A stretch of 64,000 nt of DNA from Sulfurospirillum sp. SCADC (lineage in GTDB: Bacteria > Campylobacterota > Campylobacteria > Campylobacterales > Sulfurospirillaceae). The stretch is from contig NZ_JQGK01000006.1 in the NCBI RefSeq assembly GCF_000743525.1, positions 1 to 64,000 of the forward strand. The letters run 5' to 3'. The translations under genes and the position numbers were made by a program. Under the pieces are notes generated by a model. The model saw only the letters and a program-made list of their open reading frames with translations, searched no databases and was not told where the DNA came from. Positions 871 through 9,769 of the stretch are shown piece after piece (positions within the stretch are counted from its first letter, which is position 1; each line of letters opens with the position of its first letter).

Positions 871-1701
871 CTAGTGTAATTGCATCTGCTTTAAATAATC
901 CCCTATGAAAGGAATGGAGTCCTTTCTGCACACTAAATGGGTCTCTAAATTGCACGCATTGGGTGGGAGTTTGGTTAAGATGAGGTCATCGGTATAATGG
1001 TATTTATCGACAATTGTTTTTGACAAAAACGCTCTTCCCATGCCGGCTTTAACGCAGCCTAGCATCACTTCGTAATTTTCTAAAATGATCGTCGTGTACT
1101 CCGTGTTTCCCAACGCTTCCCAGTACTGCTTAAAGAAGTTCAAGTGCGTGCTTTTTTCGCGATAGCCTATGATGCAGTTTTGACTCGTTTTATGTTTGGA
1201 TTCAACCATGTAGAGATCATCGCTGAATTCATTTAAGATGATGATGTCTTTATGGTTCGGATCGCCTGTTATGAACGCAATATCGACTTTATACTCCAAA
1301 AGAGCGTCAATGACCTGCGGTGTTCCATTGGCAAAAAGTTCGATTTGCATGGTAGGATAATCAAGTGAAAGCTTTTCGATAAAGGTCAAGAGGCGAATAA
1401 TGGCATTGGCTTGGCTTGTTCCAATGCGTAAAAGCGTCTGCTCTGAGATATTTTTCATTTTTAAAATGGTTTCTTCCACTTTGGTAACAATATCAAGCGC
1501 ATAAGGGTAGAGTTTTTCTCCCTCATACGTCAAAATAACACCTTTTGGTACACGGTGAAAAAGAGGGTAGCCCAGTTTTTTTTCAAGTTGTTTAATGCGA
1601 AGCGTGACATTGGATTGCGTAAAATAGAGCTCTTGCGCCGCCAATGAGATGCTTTGATGCTTGGCAACCGCAACGAAAATCTTGAGTAATGATGAATCCA
1701 T
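871..1701 (-). CDS. LysR-family transcriptional regulator
   Basis: A 276-residue LysR-type regulator. An N-terminal winged helix-turn-helix (residues 1-60; AAQELYFTQSNVTLRIKQLE recognition region) is followed by a periplasmic-binding-like effector domain from about residue 90. The start has an AAGGAG site six bases upstream. It is transcribed divergently from the aconitase-like/dehalogenase operon across a 111-bp gap, the classic arrangement for a LysR activator of that operon, so it probably responds to a substrate or intermediate of it. The inducer cannot be read from sequence. Confidence 0.9.
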   Translation of the reverse strand: MDSSLLKIFVAVAKHQSISLAAQELYFTQSNVTLRIKQLEKKLGYPLFHRVPKGVILTYEGEKLYPYALDIVTKVEETILKMKNISEQTLLRIGTSQANAIIRLLTFIEKLSLDYPTMQIELFANGTPQVIDALLEYKVDIAFITGDPNHKDIIILNEFSDDLYMVESKHKTSQNCIIGYREKSTHLNFFKQYWEALGNTEYTTIILENYEVMLGCVKAGMGRAFLSKTIVDKYHYTDDLILTKLPPNACNLETHLVCRKDSIPFIGDYLKQMQLH

Positions 1702-1812: not shown

Positions 1813-3063
1813 ATGCACGCAATTGAGAAGCTATTGGCGAAAAAAGCAGGGTTGACGTCTGTCAAAGCGGGTGAGATTATTAACTGTGAAGTCGATATGG
1901 CAGGCATTAACGATCTGTATTTACAAACGATTCGCTCTTTTTATGAAATGGGTGGCGTTAAAGTGCATGACCCAAGCCGTGTGATTATGTTTTTAGATCA
2001 TTATGCACCTGCTTCAACGATCCTGCAAGCCCAAAATCAGAAGCAGTTTCGAGAGTTTTGTTGGGATCAAGGCATTGATCTTTTGATGGACATCGACCAA
2101 GGCGTGTGCCATCAAGTCCTTGTCGATAAAGGGTTGTCGTACCCCGGAGAGATCGTCGTTATTACCGACTCACACACTACGACGCATGGCGCGTTTGGCG
2201 CGTTTGGAACGGGTGTGGGAGCGACGGATTTGGCGATCATTTTAGTGACAGGAAAACTGTGGTTTAGAGTCCCCGAAATCATCAAAATCAATTTTGAAGG
2301 CAAACTCCCCAAAGGCGTTTACGCCAAAGATGCCATCTTGCATGCCATTGGCGAACTAGGAGCGGACTATGCTGTTTACAAAGCGGTTGAGTTTGGTGGC
2401 TCGATGTTGGAGCATCTTAGCATCTCAGAGCGTATGGCACTGTGCAATATGAGTACCGAAATGGGCGCAAAAACGAGCTACATTCAGCCTGATGCCATTA
2501 CGATGGCGTTTTTGAAAGAGAGAGTAGCGCGTCCTTACGAGATTTATCATACGGACGCTGACTTTCATTATGCGGATGAAGTCACGTTTGATGTGCATCA
2601 CCTCAAACCGCAACTCGCAGCTCCTTCCAGTGTGGATAACGTCTACGATTTGGGTCAATTTATCGGTCGGCACATCGATCAAGCCTATTTGGGGTCGTGT
2701 ACGGGTGGAAGGGCTGAGGACATCGGCATTGCAGCGCGTATTTTAAAAGGAAAAAAGGTTGCATCTCGCACACGTTTTGTCATTGTGCCTGCGTCTAAAG
2801 GCGTGCTCCTTGAATCAATGGAGAAAGGGTATGTGCAAACCCTCGTTGAAGCAGGTGCTACCTTTGTGACCCCTGGGTGTGCAGCCTGTTTGGGAACGCA
2901 TGAGGGGATGCTTGCCTCTGGTGAGACCTGCATCACCACGACCAACCGCAATTTCCCTGGGCGCATGGGTGACACCAAAGCGGAGATTTTTCTAGGTTCT
3001 CCTGCAGCAGTTGCTGCTGCGGCTTTAATGGGCGAAATCGTTGACCCAACACTTTACATGTAA
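1813..3063 (+). CDS. Aconitase-family dehydratase, large subunit (LeuC-like)
   Basis: A 416-residue [4Fe-4S] hydro-lyase of the short LeuC/homoaconitase type, which includes isopropylmalate, homoaconitate and dimethylmalate dehydratases. TDSHTTTHGAFGAFGTGVGATD near residue 118 is the family signature; cluster ligands are Cys in GSCTGG (about 295) and the CxxC of PGCAACLG (about 355-358). An AGGAG site precedes the start. It is followed 10 bases later by the small subunit and then by a fluoroacetate-dehalogenase-like gene. That partner and the LysR regulator argue against simple leucine synthesis, so no leuC symbol is given. The TTACATGTAA palindrome provides its last codons and stop (LYM, TAA). 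Confidence 0.85.
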   Translation: MHAIEKLLAKKAGLTSVKAGEIINCEVDMAGINDLYLQTIRSFYEMGGVKVHDPSRVIMFLDHYAPASTILQAQNQKQFREFCWDQGIDLLMDIDQGVCHQVLVDKGLSYPGEIVVITDSHTTTHGAFGAFGTGVGATDLAIILVTGKLWFRVPEIIKINFEGKLPKGVYAKDAILHAIGELGADYAVYKAVEFGGSMLEHLSISERMALCNMSTEMGAKTSYIQPDAITMAFLKERVARPYEIYHTDADFHYADEVTFDVHHLKPQLAAPSSVDNVYDLGQFIGRHIDQAYLGSCTGGRAEDIGIAARILKGKKVASRTRFVIVPASKGVLLESMEKGYVQTLVEAGATFVTPGCAACLGTHEGMLASGETCITTTNRNFPGRMGDTKAEIFLGSPAAVAAAALMGEIVDPTLYM

Positions 3064-3073
3064 AGGATAAAAA

Positions 3074-3598
3074 ATGCAAAAATTATTAACAGGCAATGCC
3101 TTTGTCTTTGGCAATAATGTCGATACGGATCAGATTTACCCAGGGCGTTTTGTGGAGTTTACCGATGTGGAAGATGTCGCCAAGTATGCGATGTTTGGAG
3201 CTGATCCTGAGTTTACATGTAACGTTAAAAAAGGCGATTTTATCGTTGCTGGATCGAACTTTGGCTGTGGTAGTAGTCGTGAGCATGCGGCGATTACCCT
3301 CAAAGCGGTTGGTGTGGGTGCGATTATCGCGGAGTCGTTTGCGCGTATCTTTTATCGCAATGCCATCAATTTAGGACTGCCCGTGTTGGTGTGCCCTTTG
3401 ATTTCAAAACTCGTCACATCAGGTGCCACTGTGCAGGTCGATCTTTTAAGTGGCGAAATTTGCGATGAAACGGGCAAAATTGCACAGGCAGAGCCGATGT
3501 CAGAATATACGCTGCATATTCTTGAAAGTGGTGGCATTAAATCGTTGATTAAAAAACAGATGGAGCTTAATATGGAGGAGAGAACGTCATGGCTATAA
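3074..3598 (+). CDS. Aconitase-family dehydratase, small subunit (LeuD-like)
   Basis: A 174-residue swivel-domain subunit partnering the upstream large subunit. The motifs NVDTDQIYPGRF (about residue 15) and GSNFGCGSSREHA (about 61-73) are diagnostic. The substrate-loop equivalent of the IPxRYL segment of LeuD reads IYPGRFVEF here, differing from the usual isopropylmalate form as I remember it, so the substrate may differ. AAGGA ribosome site upstream. The 3' end overlaps the dehalogenase gene by 10 bp, indicating translational coupling. Contains a TTACATGTAA copy at 3213 (FTCN). Confidence 0.85.
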   Translation: MQKLLTGNAFVFGNNVDTDQIYPGRFVEFTDVEDVAKYAMFGADPEFTCNVKKGDFIVAGSNFGCGSSREHAAITLKAVGVGAIIAESFARIFYRNAINLGLPVLVCPLISKLVTSGATVQVDLLSGEICDETGKIAQAEPMSEYTLHILESGGIKSLIKKQMELNMEERTSWL

Positions 3599-4503
3599 CG
3601 GATTATTTTCAAGGGTTTGAGCGTATGATGATAGATGTGGGCGATGTGTCGATCCATACGCTTGTTGGAGGCGAGGGCAAAGAGGTCATTTTACTGTTAC
3701 ACGGGCATCCTGAGAACTATCTTATTTGGCGAGACATTGCTCCCGATCTTGCGAAGCGTTACACTGTTGTAATGACCGATCTTCGCGGATACGGTGATAG
3801 CTCAAAACCCAAAGGGTTACCCGATCACTCGAACTACTCCAAACGTGTGATGGCCCTCGATCAAGTGAAGGTGATGGAGCATTTAGGCTTTAGTGAGTAT
3901 CACATCGTAGGGCATGACCGAGGGGCTAGGGTGTGCCATCGCTTGATGCTGGATCATCCCGACAAAGTGTTGACCTGTACGATGATGGATATTTTACCGA
4001 CGTACGATATGTATGAGCGCACCAACAGAGAGTTTGCGACGAAGTATTGGCACTGGTTTTTTTACATTCAGCCTTTCGATTTTCCTGAGCGATTTTTAGG
4101 CGCTGATCCTGATTATTTTATTCGCAATAATTTGCTGAAAAAAGCTTCCCCTGAGGCACTTAAAAACTTCCCAGAAGATGTTTTACAAGACTACATCCGA
4201 TGCTATTCTGACCCTGCGACGGTGCATGGGATCAGTGAAGATTATAGGGCGGCTGCGAGCATTGACCTTGAACATGACATCGTTGATCGCTCCACCAAGA
4301 TCAAAACACCGCTTTTAGTGTTGTGGGGCGCGAATGGTGTTGTGGGAAAACTGTGGGACATTCTTCAAGGGTGGAAAGATCGTGCCGAAGATGTCAGTGG
4401 CTTTGGGCTTTTGGATTGCGGTCATTTTGTGCCTGAAGAGAAGCCTCAAATTGTGTTGGAAGCGTTAGGCGCTTTCCTAGAGCAAAAACGTAAAAAAAGT
4501 TAA
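3589..4503 (+). CDS. Fluoroacetate/haloacetate dehalogenase-like alpha/beta hydrolase
   Basis: A 304-residue alpha/beta hydrolase keeping the residue set known for fluoroacetate dehalogenase of Rhodopseudomonas palustris: nucleophile Asp110 in GHDRGAR, carboxylate-binding Arg111 and Arg114, Asp134, halide-pocket His155 and Trp156 (KYWHWFF), Tyr219, and catalytic His279 (DCGHF). The numbering coincides almost exactly with what I recall of that enzyme. The oxyanion segment is HGHPEN (38-43). Expected reaction: hydrolysis of a 2-haloacid, for example fluoroacetate to glycolate, in the cytoplasm. Last gene of the dehydratase operon. Whether fluoro- or chloro-acids are the real substrates is open. 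Confidence 0.8.
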   Translation: MAITDYFQGFERMMIDVGDVSIHTLVGGEGKEVILLLHGHPENYLIWRDIAPDLAKRYTVVMTDLRGYGDSSKPKGLPDHSNYSKRVMALDQVKVMEHLGFSEYHIVGHDRGARVCHRLMLDHPDKVLTCTMMDILPTYDMYERTNREFATKYWHWFFYIQPFDFPERFLGADPDYFIRNNLLKKASPEALKNFPEDVLQDYIRCYSDPATVHGISEDYRAAASIDLEHDIVDRSTKIKTPLLVLWGANGVVGKLWDILQGWKDRAEDVSGFGLLDCGHFVPEEKPQIVLEALGAFLEQKRKKS

Positions 4504-4687
4504 ATCATTGTAGTGATCTTACGTAAACGGTAAAATTAAGCAAGCATTCTGAAAAAGAGTTCTATTCTAAGTCTTTAAAAGCATTGTAGGTGACTGCATT
4601 TTGGCTGTATCACCAACGCCAAATGAAGTGCAGAATCAGCTAAGTGGTGTTTAGGGCTTGCAATATAACCAAACTAAGGAATTCAAA

Positions 4688-5176
4688 ATGAGGGATAGTG
4701 CGATAAAAATGTATCGTTTAGGGATGGCTTTTATCTGTTTGGGCTCATGTGCTTTTGCAGAGGAGATTGGGTCGGTCAATACGGCTTTTGTTCTCTTGGG
4801 TGCCAATCATAAAATTGTGATTGAAGCATTTGATGACCCCAAAATACCTGGTGTTTCGTGCCATCTTTCGCGTGCAAAAACGGGCGGGGTGAAAGGCTCT
4901 TTGGGGATTGCGGAAGATACGTCGGATGCTTCGATCGCGTGCAGGCAAACAGGTGTTATCACATTGCCTCAAACGATTCAGTCCAAAAAGAGTGATGGTG
5001 AACGCGTTTTTAAAGAGTCAACATCGTTACTGTTTAAGCATGTGCAGGTGGTTCGCTTTTACGATGCCAAACGCAATACGCTTATTTATCTGACCTACTC
5101 TGACAAACTCATCGATGGTTCACCCCAAAATGCGATTTCAACGGTGCAAATTACCAATAGTATTTTTGAAAAATAA
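4688..5176 (+). CDS. CreA family protein
   Basis: A secreted or periplasmic protein of about 162 residues with an N-terminal signal peptide (hydrophobic core about residues 10-22, ending AFAEE). The body ([41 protein letters not shown]) matches the CreA family, whose role is unknown. Start chosen at 4688 because AAGGA lies seven bases upstream; an in-frame ATG at 4658 has no ribosome site. Two Cys residues could form a disulfide. The 184 bases upstream hold no other visible gene. A hairpin follows the gene. Confidence 0.75.
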
Positions 5177-5805: not shown

Positions 5806-7128
5806 ATGAATCTCACAAAAGCATTAACTTTGGCAGCGATATGTTTTCCAGTGTTCGCTTTTTCTTTAACATTAGAAGAAGGCGCAAAAACGATTCTCGA
5901 ATCAAGTCCTAAAGTAAAGGAGAGTGTCGAGAATTTCAATGGAGTGAAGAAAGAGTATAACATTGCAGAAAATGGATACCTTCCAACACTTGACTTGGTT
6001 AGCTCCTACGGGCATCAGACGTACAAAGAACCAGGAGCGGGTAAACTTTCCAGTGTCACCGATGAGACTTCATTGGTTTTAAACCAAAATCTCTTTAATG
6101 GCTTTGCGACAGAAAATACCATCAAACAACAAAAAAATAGACTCGAAGCGGCATCGTTTGGCGTAACGGAGAAAGCCGATAGAACACTTTTGGCGTATAC
6201 CAACGCATACATTATGCTTTTAAAAAACAAAGAGCTTTTGGATCTTGCACGTGAAAACGCACAAACCCATGAAGCGATCTACAAACAGATTAAAGAGCGT
6301 TCTGATTCAGGTTTTGGTCGTCTCTCTGAGACACAACAAGCCGGTAGCCGTTATACGCTTGCACAATCCAATGTGATTTCGCAAGAAAACAACTATAAAG
6401 ACGCCGTTTCAACTTTTGAAAAACTCTACGGTCAAAAACTCGATGCTAAAGACCTTGTAAAACCAGACTTTGCAGCGACTGTTCCTGTCAGTTATGAAAA
6501 ATTCAATGAAAAAAGCTTTACATGTAACCCTTCCATTAAGATGCAAGAAGCCAATGTCAGACTTGCAGATGCTTTGTATGAAGGCTCTAAAGCAGCGTTT
6601 TACCCTAAAGTTGATTTTGAACTTGCCGGAACCGTTGGTCATGACCTTGATGGCGTTGATGGACGTTATGAAAACACCTCCGCGCTTTTAAAATTCAGAT
6701 ACAACCTGTATAACAAAGGTGCTGACATGCTCACCAAAGAGAAGTACACCATTTTGACGATGAAAGAAAAAGAGACCTTAGCCGCACTTGAACGTGATCT
6801 TAAAGAGAGTGTTAAGTTTTCATGGGAGAGTTATGAGTCGACTCAAAAACGTATTGACCTTTTGCAAGAACACAAAAAATTTAGCCAAGCAACACTCAAT
6901 GCGTACCAACAAGAGTTTGCAATTGGTAAACGCGATTTGATTAACCTTTTGGATGCCGAGGGCGAATACTACTCAGCACGACAAGCCCTCGCAGAAGCAG
7001 AAGCAACGTTGCTATACGCCAAATACAGAATCTTAGATAACATGGGTGTTTTAACCGACTATTTTGATGCTTCATTTGGGCAAACCTATGATGTTCAAAC
7101 ATGCTCTCATAAAAGTGTCTCATTTTAA
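5806..7128 (+). CDS. TolC-like outer membrane channel of type I secretion (LapE-like)
   Basis: A 440-residue outer membrane efflux protein with a signal peptide (about residues 1-19, ending FAFS). The long alpha-helical hairpins expected of TolC are visible as two related halves, with Asn-Leu-rich helix segments such as LNQNLFNGFATENTIKQQ (about 90) and FRYNLYNKGADMLTKEK (about 300). It should form the outer membrane exit for the adhesin encoded downstream, together with the ABC and membrane fusion components. First gene of the lap-type operon; a GGGGGAG site precedes the start. A TTACATGTAA copy at 6518 encodes FTCN. Both strong neighbours and fold support the call. Confidence 0.88.
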   Translation: MNLTKALTLAAICFPVFAFSLTLEEGAKTILESSPKVKESVENFNGVKKEYNIAENGYLPTLDLVSSYGHQTYKEPGAGKLSSVTDETSLVLNQNLFNGFATENTIKQQKNRLEAASFGVTEKADRTLLAYTNAYIMLLKNKELLDLARENAQTHEAIYKQIKERSDSGFGRLSETQQAGSRYTLAQSNVISQENNYKDAVSTFEKLYGQKLDAKDLVKPDFAATVPVSYEKFNEKSFTCNPSIKMQEANVRLADALYEGSKAAFYPKVDFELAGTVGHDLDGVDGRYENTSALLKFRYNLYNKGADMLTKEKYTILTMKEKETLAALERDLKESVKFSWESYESTQKRIDLLQEHKKFSQATLNAYQQEFAIGKRDLINLLDAEGEYYSARQALAEAEATLLYAKYRILDNMGVLTDYFDASFGQTYDVQTCSHKSVSF

Positions 7129-7172
7129 TGAGCAGACTTTAGGGAGATGGGCTAAAGCCCCAGAAACGAAGG

Positions 7173-7814
7173 ATGCGTAAAAAGCTATTTTTAGTTATTA
7201 TCTTTGTTGTTTTAACACTGTATGCAGGACAAGAATTTTTTACACAAGAAATCCTCAAAAAAGTTGAAACAAAATACGGAGGCTCTGCGAAGCGAAGAGT
7301 TGAGGCATTAAACACGCTGCTGCTCTCGCTTCAAACTTCTAGGGAATCTGAGAAGCTTGAGAAGGTCAACGCCTTTTTCAACCAGATGCAGTTTGTATCC
7401 GACGAATCCCTTTGGAAGCAGAAAGATTACTGGGCGACACGCATGGAGTTTATTGGGATGGGTGCGGGTGATTGTGAAGATTTTGTGATTGCGAAGTATT
7501 TTACGTTAAAGCAATTAGGCATTTCAACAGATAAGCTTTTTTTTACGTATGTTAAGGCTATAAAATTTCAACAAGCTCATATGGTTTTAACCTATTTTGA
7601 GACACCCACTTCTGTTCCTCTTGTTTTAGACAACATCAATTACAAAATTTTACCAGCAACACAGAGAAACGATCTCGTGCCTGTTTACAGTTTTAATGGT
7701 GATGCGTTGTATCTTGCCAAGCAACAAGGATTAGGGCAAATTGTCCCCTCCGGTATGCAGAAAAATAAAAAATGGTTTGATTTGATAGATAAGATTAGGA
7801 GAGAAGAGCAATGA
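7173..7814 (+). CDS. lapG: LapG-like periplasmic transglutaminase-like cysteine protease (copy 1)
   Basis: A 213-residue bacterial transglutaminase-like cysteine proteinase. An N-terminal hydrophobic segment (about 5-20) would export or anchor it. The triad is intact: Cys101 in GAGDCEDF, His136 in QAHMVL, Asp153 in VLDNIN. LapG cleaves the N terminus of LapA-type adhesins to release them from the outer membrane and is held inactive by LapD bound to c-di-GMP. The next gene is LapD-like and overlaps by 4 bp, so this is the canonical lapG position. The GAAGG before the ATG abuts it with no spacing, an unusual start, but no better one is seen. A second homologue lies at 21627. Confidence 0.88.
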   Translation: MRKKLFLVIIFVVLTLYAGQEFFTQEILKKVETKYGGSAKRRVEALNTLLLSLQTSRESEKLEKVNAFFNQMQFVSDESLWKQKDYWATRMEFIGMGAGDCEDFVIAKYFTLKQLGISTDKLFFTYVKAIKFQQAHMVLTYFETPTSVPLVLDNINYKILPATQRNDLVPVYSFNGDALYLAKQQGLGQIVPSGMQKNKKWFDLIDKIRREEQ

Positions 7815-9769
7815 CCCTTTTTAAACAGATAATTATTGTTTTGTCCATTTTTCAGACAGTGATTTTTGGCGCTGTGATGTGGTTCAATTTTAACAGTTCC
7901 AATGAATATGTCAAAGAACAAGCGTACACGGACGCGCTTCATACGGCGAATTCACTAGGCTTGTCCATCAGTTCGGTCGCAAGTGAAGATGACACTTCCA
8001 TGGCTGAAACAATGATTAATTCCGTGTTTGACAGTGGTTATTATGAAAAAATCACCCTAGAAGGAATGAACAAAGAGATTTTGGTTGAAAAAGTCCAAGA
8101 GGTCATTGTAGCAGACGTGCCTGCGTGGTTTGTTAAAAATATTAAAGTTGAAACGCCTGTCGCTAGTTCACAAATCATGCTAGGATGGACGCCTTATGGT
8201 ATTATCTCCGTACAGCTCAACAGTGGGCATGCGTACCGTCAATTATGGACGATTTTTAAAGAAGTATTAGCTGTTTTTATCGTCGCTTCATTTATCGGCT
8301 TTTTCTGCTTGCAACTCATCTTAACCATTGTGTTGAAGCCTCTCAAACGGGTCAAAGAGCAAGCCGAAGCTATTTTGGAGAGCGATTTTATCCTTCAACA
8401 TGACATTCCGTTTACCAAAGAGCTCAAAAACGTTGTTTTTGCGATGAACAGTATGGTGAAAAAAGTCAAAGAGATTTTTGAAAAAGAGGCGGATGCGGTT
8501 CGTCGTTACCATGAAATTCTCTACCAAGACACGGTCACCAAGATGTACAACCGTCGTTATTTTAACATCAAACTCCAAGAGTACCTCTCCAGCGAAGCTA
8601 AAAATGCGCAAGGGGCGTTGATTTTGGTCTCGTTGAATGATTTTGAGCGTTTGAAGGGAAAATTGGGGTATCAAAAAAGTGAAGCGTTTATCAAAGAGAT
8701 GGCATCGTGCATTACGATGGCGATTAGCAATCAAAAAGAGTATGTCAGTGCCAAACTCAGTGACACCGACTTTGCTATCTTAGCGCCTGCGACGTCACAA
8801 AGTTCGTTTGAGCTTCTTTGCGAAGAGATCAATGCGATGGTGAAAAACCTGACTAAAAATTATGAACTCAACGAAAAAGAGCATTTTATCAATATCGGGT
8901 ATGCCAAGTATTTTGCTAAGTCCGACTCCAAAGAGCTCTTCTCTAAAGCCGATTTTGCGCTGACCTCTTCCAAAGCCAGAGGTGCGTTTAGCATCAACAG
9001 TTTTGTGGAACAAGCAGGCGATTCGCAACTCGTGCTTGGTAAAGAGGCGTGGACACAAGAGCTTAAAAATGCGATGGATCAAAAACGCTTCAAACTCGCT
9101 TATCAAAATGTGGTGGCTATTCATACGGTCGCCTCAGAGTTTCACAGCGAGCTTTTCTTGCGTTTGGAAGATTATAATGGGCATCTGCACAATGCAGGCT
9201 ATTTTATGCCGATGGTGATGGAGCTTAAACTAGGCGCGCAACTGGATCATTATGTAATTCAGCGTGCCATCGAGGTTTTGCGTGAAAAACACTTTACATG
9301 TAAAGCGATTTGTATCAACCTTGGGAAAGATATTTTTATGCAAAGTAACGACTGGGCGTGGTTGGAAGACAGTGTGGAGGGCTTTAAAAAACTGGGCATG
9401 GAAGGGCTCTATTTTGAGATGCCAAGTTCCTTAGATATGCCGATTGAAATTTTGATCAAATTTTCAAAATACCTACGCAGTTTTGGATACGGATTTGGAA
9501 TCGATAACTTTGCGATTAACAGCGAAAGCCTAGATGCAATTCAGCAGATCAATCCTGATTACATCAAGATTCAAGCCTCATACATGATCGATCTTTTTGG
9601 TAATGGTCTGGATGCACCGAACCGAAGCCTTGGCATTATCACCGATAGTATGGAGATAAAAGTCATCGCGACCAATGTTGAGAACAGTACCCAAAAAGAG
9701 ACATTAGAGAAAATGGGTGTCAAATATATCCAAGGCAGTTTTATCGCCGAGCCTAAGATCATAGGATAA
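7811..9769 (+). CDS. lapD: LapD-like inner membrane c-di-GMP receptor (HAMP, degenerate GGDEF and EAL)
   Basis: A 652-residue protein: TM1 (about 5-25), periplasmic LapD/MoxY-type sensor domain (26-150), TM2 (about 152-175), HAMP, GGDEF-like domain (about 235-400) and EAL-like domain (about 410-650). Both enzymatic signatures are degenerate: the GGDEF loop reads LSDTDF and the EAL motif reads ELFLR, which keeps the Glu and Arg used to bind c-di-GMP. This is the LapD pattern, a receptor that sequesters LapG when c-di-GMP is high. It overlaps lapG by 4 bp and is 2 bp before the ABC gene. A TTACATGTAA copy at 9294 encodes FTCK. Confidence 0.88.
   Translation: MTLFKQIIIVLSIFQTVIFGAVMWFNFNSSNEYVKEQAYTDALHTANSLGLSISSVASEDDTSMAETMINSVFDSGYYEKITLEGMNKEILVEKVQEVIVADVPAWFVKNIKVETPVASSQIMLGWTPYGIISVQLNSGHAYRQLWTIFKEVLAVFIVASFIGFFCLQLILTIVLKPLKRVKEQAEAILESDFILQHDIPFTKELKNVVFAMNSMVKKVKEIFEKEADAVRRYHEILYQDTVTKMYNRRYFNIKLQEYLSSEAKNAQGALILVSLNDFERLKGKLGYQKSEAFIKEMASCITMAISNQKEYVSAKLSDTDFAILAPATSQSSFELLCEEINAMVKNLTKNYELNEKEHFINIGYAKYFAKSDSKELFSKADFALTSSKARGAFSINSFVEQAGDSQLVLGKEAWTQELKNAMDQKRFKLAYQNVVAIHTVASEFHSELFLRLEDYNGHLHNAGYFMPMVMELKLGAQLDHYVIQRAIEVLREKHFTCKAICINLGKDIFMQSNDWAWLEDSVEGFKKLGMEGLYFEMPSSLDMPIEILIKFSKYLRSFGYGFGIDNFAINSESLDAIQQINPDYIKIQASYMIDLFGNGLDAPNRSLGIITDSMEIKVIATNVENSTQKETLEKMGVKYIQGSFIAEPKIIG

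Follow-up and report, generated by a model that had tools for sequence, protein, structure and literature searches.

Which compound is metabolized by an operon that couples a homolog of fluoroacetate dehalogenase to two aconitase-family subunits is the question raised by positions 1813-4503 of the window, the 64,000-nucleotide stretch analyzed here, which opens contig C6 (NZ_JQGK01000006.1) of the 2.66 Mb genome of Sulfurospirillum sp. SCADC, whose closest named relatives are Sulfurospirillum. A sequence-only reading of this DNA had linked the genes through fluoroacetate, a poison of aconitase by way of fluorocitrate, or else through conversion of a hydroxy-acid after dehalogenation. Comparison of the locus with its relatives points, with somewhat better than even confidence, to an operon that degrades a C4 dicarboxylic acid epoxide, most likely trans-epoxysuccinate, via meso-tartrate to oxaloacetate.

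A second leuCD pair overlapping a hydrolase gene

The three genes of the operon lie on the plus strand, and an open reading frame check returned exactly the LeuC-like, LeuD-like and overlapping hydrolase frames first described. LeuC2 (1813-3063, 416 amino acids; PF00330, hacA_fam subfamily), an aconitase-superfamily large subunit and the proposed large subunit of a meso-tartrate dehydratase, is followed after a 10-base gap by the small subunit LeuD2 (3074-3598, 174 amino acids; PF00694, TIGR02087), the gene of which overlaps by 10 bases that of an alpha/beta hydrolase (3589-4503, 304 amino acids; PF00561). A divergent LysR-family regulator gene (871-1701, minus strand; PF00126 and PF03466) also belongs to the operon, and the 111 bp separating it from LeuC2 (1702-1812) presumably contain the operator and promoter, judging by position only.

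With their aconitase and swivel domains (PF00330, PF00694) and the motifs GSCTG, PGCAACLG and GSSRE, LeuC2 and LeuD2 resemble the LeuCD/homoaconitase/DmdAB group in large and small subunit architecture, cluster motifs and the GSSRE motif, and differ from it in their leucine scores, in having GSCTG for GSCTN, in the FVEF stretch of the small subunit and in lacking a leucine context. In profile searches, LeuC2 passed the homoaconitate hydratase family model (505 bits, cut-off 386) but remained below the leucine equivalogs TIGR02083 (443 bits, cut-off 611) and TIGR00170 (240 bits, cut-off 560), as LeuD2 did for TIGR02084 (158 bits, cut-off 246). Gly298, the last residue of GSCTG, is found in 37/37 LeuC2-type relatives, whereas 15/15 housekeeping LeuC proteins have Asn. 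Substrate choice in these enzymes is set by a short stretch of the small subunit (PMC7308503), which in LeuD2 reads F26-V-E-F29 (3149-3160, plus strand) and aligns with YLVY of the isopropylmalate isomerase and YLRT of the homoaconitase of Methanocaldococcus jannaschii, and with YLNT of the genome's own LeuD.

A housekeeping leuC, the product of which is 44% identical to LeuC2, occurs on another contig (G000:C8:90175), and a housekeeping leuD lies directly upstream of leuB (G000:C2:56443); LeuC2-LeuD2 is therefore a second pair, and leucine synthesis is not its role. The separate leuCD on which the sequence-only reading turned is thus present, and the two loci rule out that the window holds the only leuCD of the genome. 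A separate aconitase-family gene of 860 amino acids is also encoded elsewhere in this genome.

Searched against solved structures, the hydrolase gave E values of 1e-69 to 1e-86 with fluoroacetate dehalogenases, the best solved match being Alr0039 (PDB 3qyj, 2e-102). The residues that had been recognized in it from the sequence (D110, R111, R114, D134, H155, W156 and Y219, RPA1163 numbering) are all present and are invariant in 36/36 close relatives, as are the Asp nucleophile (Asp110, 3916-3918, plus strand), the Arg pair, the His/Trp/Tyr halide pocket and the catalytic His and Asp as a set. Position 185 is Lys (4141-4143, plus strand) in 35 of the 36 aligned rows, the exception being a more distant Reyranella sequence, and Trp in RPA1163, DehH1 and 3qyj; in RPA1163 this Trp sits in the substrate pocket (PMC11465415). 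In the tree, the enzyme is one of 35 rows that form a clade with 100/100 support; its members come from Campylobacterota, Bacillota and Mycoplasmatota, plus a few Pseudomonadota bins, and RPA1163, DehH1 and 1y37 lie outside it. PDB 4nvr, an enzyme from Salmonella, belongs to a second clade together with LeuCD-linked and tartrate-dehydrogenase-linked enzymes and has Trp at 155. In sum, the hydrolase is like RPA1163 (PDB 3r3u) and DehH1 (plasmid pUO1) in fold, Asp nucleophile, Arg111/Arg114, His155/Trp156/Tyr219 and catalytic His, and unlike them in its separate clade, in residue 185, in the absence of an adjoining fluoride exporter, in its linkage to LeuCD and in the linkage of its relatives to dicarboxylate genes. 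These solved relatives, the active-site alignment and the tree place it in the fluoroacetate-dehalogenase/epoxide-hydrolase family, where it is proposed to be a trans-epoxysuccinate hydrolase.

Recurrent gene partners in other bacteria

A scan of a collection of 84,980 species recovered 28 loci, in 20 of which the hydrolase gene adjoins a LeuC2-LeuD2 pair of the short type, in both gene orders and in Campylobacterota, Bacillota, Mycoplasmatota and Pseudomonadota. Within the genus, hydrolase and LeuC2 are both present in 16/24 genomes and both absent in 8/24, that is, they co-occur in 24/24, even though the genes lie far apart in 8 of the 16 genomes holding both; an ortholog of the LysR gene is present in all 8 genomes with linked copies and missing from the 16 others. 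Plasmids from Klebsiella, Pantoea, Methylobacterium and Paraburkholderia carry related hydrolases in operons with LeuCD of a long type, as do 4/5426 Escherichia coli genomes. The long-type LeuCD shares no more than about 33% identity with LeuC2, which means that this hydrolase family has been combined with two lineages of LeuCD. The plasmid loci are unevenly sampled, and related records, including the genomes of one genus, are non-independent; nevertheless, recurrence in several phyla and joint presence or absence in all the genus genomes indicate that the arrangement is not due to chance.

Other neighbors of these genes are connected with dicarboxylates, tartrate and oxaloacetate. In Sulfurospirillum diekertiae-type genomes LeuCD2 adjoins a DASS carrier, TtdA, TtdB and a GntR regulator gene, TtdA and TtdB passing the L(+)-tartrate dehydratase equivalogs (470 and 314 bits, cut-offs 365 and 264); the GntR gene is next to LeuCD2 in 7/7 such genomes examined and TtdAB in 6/7. 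In Ruegeria the hydrolase gene begins on the base right after a tartrate dehydrogenase gene (559 bits, equivalog cut-off 470). In Clostridium magnum, Lacrimispora, Maledivibacter and two Burkholderiaceae bins the hydrolase has a DASS carrier as its neighbor, genes for the alpha and beta subunits of oxaloacetate decarboxylase lie a few genes away in C. magnum, and the order in Anaerospora is DASS-LeuC2-LeuD2-sensor-OadA. The Klebsiella and E. coli operons include a gene of the FAH family, the best named models of which are other enzymes, below cut-off. This family includes FAHD1, an oxaloacetate tautomerase/decarboxylase (PMC12176266), and oxaloacetate chemistry would be a possibility for the operon member as well. 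These partners converge on the conversion of tartrate to oxaloacetate. TtdAB and the tartrate dehydrogenase TtuC, which related genomes carry in linkage with LeuCD2 or the hydrolase, would act at the same level of the pathway as LeuC2-LeuD2, but belong to unrelated protein families and act on another isomer or catalyze another reaction.

Three further observations concern variants of this setting. The S. diekertiae group (L095, L124-L129) lacks the LysR gene and has LeuCD2 next to GntR of the L-tartrate dehydratase locus, so that regulation appears to have been rewired naturally. In E. coli FAM21845 (L147:5270-11932) the set of an MFS gene, leuC-leuD-FAH-hydrolase and LysR has VirB-type genes, an integrase and tRNA-Asn as neighbors, which gives it the look of an integrated element. 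A Bradyrhizobium plasmid (L148:6001-10663) carries a long-type LeuCD, 61% identical to that of Klebsiella, after which come a 2-hydroxycarboxylate transporter and a supposed mannonate dehydratase gene, so named in its annotation, and may represent another hydroxy-diacid cluster lacking the hydrolase.

A proposed route to oxaloacetate and its alternatives

The comparison shows directly how the operon is built, that its leuCD is a second pair, which active-site residues the hydrolase has, which neighbors recur and that the genes co-occur; we infer the substrates of the hydrolase and of LeuC2-LeuD2, the stereochemistry in vivo and the regulation, and the enzyme steps proposed here are drawn from gene neighbors and stereochemistry. 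Asp110 would attack one carbon of the epoxide, with Arg111 and Arg114 binding one carboxylate, His155, Trp156 and Tyr219 the leaving oxygen and, possibly, Lys185 the other carboxylate; meso-tartrate would then be freed when the ester intermediate is hydrolyzed. LeuC2-LeuD2, presumably a [4Fe-4S] heterodimer of the aconitase superfamily, would take water from meso-tartrate in the way that its relatives dehydrate (2R,3S)-isopropylmalate; the enol-oxaloacetate formed would become oxaloacetate, which may feed fumarate respiration in this organism or, in fermenters, oxaloacetate decarboxylase. Sensing of the substrate presumably falls to the LysR protein.

Hydrolases with an Asp nucleophile invert the attacked carbon, so that a trans-epoxide yields meso-tartrate and a cis-epoxide D- or L-tartrate, and aconitase-type enzymes act on (2R,3S) hydroxy-acids. 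A geometric check revealed that placing a hydroxyl for the isopropyl group of (2R,3S)-3-isopropylmalate gives (2R,3S)-tartrate, the meso form. Fungi form trans-epoxysuccinate as an overflow acid, and it can be converted to meso-tartrate (PMC8230503); its biosynthetic gene clusters occur in more than 100 fungal species and in cyanobacteria (PMC12568646). Given that partner genes, stereochemistry and a fungal source converge, the route from trans-epoxysuccinate through meso-tartrate to oxaloacetate appears to be the simplest reading. The proposed first reaction is like that of cis-epoxysuccinate hydrolases, which open an epoxy-diacid to tartrate (PMC10869282, PMC6429283). Those forming L-tartrate have a HAD fold, in contrast with the alpha/beta hydrolase fold of the window enzyme. 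A trans-epoxysuccinate hydrolase reported from Pseudomonas koreensis is likewise of this reaction type; the epoxysuccinate literature provided no alpha/beta-hydrolase sequence for comparison.

Several observations weigh against this route. True fluoroacetate dehalogenases have this very set of active-site residues, which would suit hydrolysis of a carbon-halide bond as well as that of an epoxide. PDB 9c9f goes under the name of fluoroacetate dehalogenase; its residue 185 is Arg, and it clusters with a LeuCD-linked Paraburkholderia enzyme. For this reason residue 185 is not decisive and was dropped as sole discriminator, and a basic residue at this position, which would suit a second carboxylate, is only suggestive. 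The ttdAB genes of the genome itself are on another contig, C13, rather than in the operon. C. magnum has the hydrolase, DASS and Oad genes without a close LeuC2, and neither LeuCD nor a tartrate gene is found near several closely related plasmid hydrolases, namely those of Rhizobium, Komagataeibacter, Acetobacter and one Pantoea. Lastly, a second LeuCD2 copy in Anaerospora adjoins a type II haloacid-dehalogenase-family protein of the HAD class, scoring 104 bits against L-2-haloacid dehalogenase and 58-65 bits against cis-epoxysuccinate hydrolases. The gene of this protein (L145:7436-8110, G150:C3) lies between a class II fumarase-like gene and the LeuCD2 copy, and its product has a GSPFD motif for the SNAWD of L-2-haloacid dehalogenase. 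It is possibly a non-homologous stand-in for the alpha/beta hydrolase and could act on a halo-acid or an epoxide.

In the least unlikely of the alternatives, the hydrolase removes the halogen of a C4 halo-acid (2-halosuccinate or halo-malate), with malate or tartrate as the product, and LeuC2-LeuD2 processes the resulting hydroxy-diacid; the operon would then serve to dehalogenate a dicarboxylate. The full H155/W156/Y219 halide pocket, the HAD-family gene that replaces the hydrolase in Anaerospora, and the tartrate and oxaloacetate neighbors, which fit a halo-hydroxysuccinate too, all speak for it; however, a simple halosuccinate would yield malate, which calls for fumarase and not for aconitase-type or tartrate enzymes, and the tartrate dehydrogenase and TtdAB neighbors would be left unexplained. 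Doubtful, and ranking next, is the view that LeuC2-LeuD2 is a hydro-lyase of the isopropylmalate, citramalate or dimethylmalate type acting on C5-C6 acids, with the hydrolase cleaving an ester or lactone of the same acid. The closest solved relatives of the pair are indeed isopropylmalate/citramalate isomerase subunits and the matching family model is LeuD/DmdB, but the operon is adjacent to neither leuA/leuB nor a lyase, housekeeping leuC and leuD-leuB are elsewhere, relatives have C4 dicarboxylate genes as neighbors, and the recognition stretch of LeuD2 contains an acidic residue. Its dimethylmalate/nicotinate version was dropped, as neither a lyase nor another pathway member was seen among the nearby genes, and the literature on that pathway gave nothing of use.

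Opening of cis-epoxysuccinate to D- or L-tartrate, followed by dehydration of that isomer by LeuC2-LeuD2, would fit the gene neighbors too, and one type of known cis-epoxysuccinate hydrolases is related to haloacid dehalogenases (PMC10869282). We regard it as improbable, in that the (2R,3S) rule predicts meso-tartrate, L-tartrate is already covered by TtdAB, and the fungal acid is the trans isomer (PMC8230503). The least probable is the original proposal that the hydrolase destroys fluoroacetate while the aconitase relative helps to detoxify it or replaces the poisoned aconitase. In spite of the complete set of fluoroacetate dehalogenase residues and a family that includes tested defluorinases, the enzyme forms its own clade outside the tested dehalogenases and has Lys185 for Trp185; neither crcB nor a fluoride riboswitch is found near it (the only CrcB match of the genome is on another contig), unlike the DehH1 locus of pUO1, where crcB adjoins the dehalogenase gene; C2 acids are not the substrates of the conserved partners, which are genes for dicarboxylates, tartrate and oxaloacetate; and the genome has its separate 860-amino-acid aconitase-family gene. 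Fluoroacetate detoxification was set aside on clade, residue 185, absence of nearby fluoride genes and neighboring genes, and the literature yielded no report of a fluoroacetate dehalogenase beside leuCD. What survives of the sequence-only reading is a dedicated non-leucine operon in which a dehalogenase-family hydrolase acts with an aconitase-family hydro-lyase; the link between fluoroacetate, fluorocitrate and aconitase is not supported. Its notion that the hydrolase step is followed by conversion of a hydroxy-acid is, in broad terms, probably right. The best supported reading remains a dicarboxylate epoxide pathway, a halide substrate being less likely, with a tartrate dehydratase from the aconitase superfamily.

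Flanking genes and implications

Downstream of the operon (4658-5176) lies a gene for a CreA-family protein (PF05981) of unknown function. In a close relative (G012, L097) the CreA-family gene is on the opposite side of the operon, and it is therefore probably not part of it. Further along (5806-9769), a TolC-like outer-membrane protein, a LapG-like cysteine protease and a LapD-like GGDEF/EAL protein were recognized by eye, which suggests a cluster for type I secretion and adhesin control.

The enzyme families involved are known, and the function proposed for them is new. Tartrate dehydratase is not among the aconitase-superfamily functions listed in a 2021 structural paper (PMC8184944), and the superfamily would gain this role if the proposal is true. 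In Salmonella ST313, respiration of meso-tartrate persists despite a broken ttdA (PMC4372345), and so another enzyme is called for. The genes annotated as leuCD and haloacetate dehalogenase in gut fermenters, Sulfurospirillum, Klebsiella plasmids and a few E. coli would serve to break down a fungal epoxide acid, and an annotation error that keeps recurring would be corrected. According to classical Salmonella genetics, the second enterobacterial LeuC/LeuD pair reportedly is SupQ-NewD, whose native function is not known to have been found. More tentatively, and with slightly less than even confidence, the operon may represent a horizontally spread and undescribed pathway for fungal trans-epoxysuccinate, in which meso-tartrate dehydratases were drawn from two separate lineages of the aconitase superfamily; the Klebsiella and E. 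coli enzyme, and SupQ-NewD as well, would then be one and the same. If so, a testable native function would be offered for the second LeuC/LeuD pair of enterobacteria.

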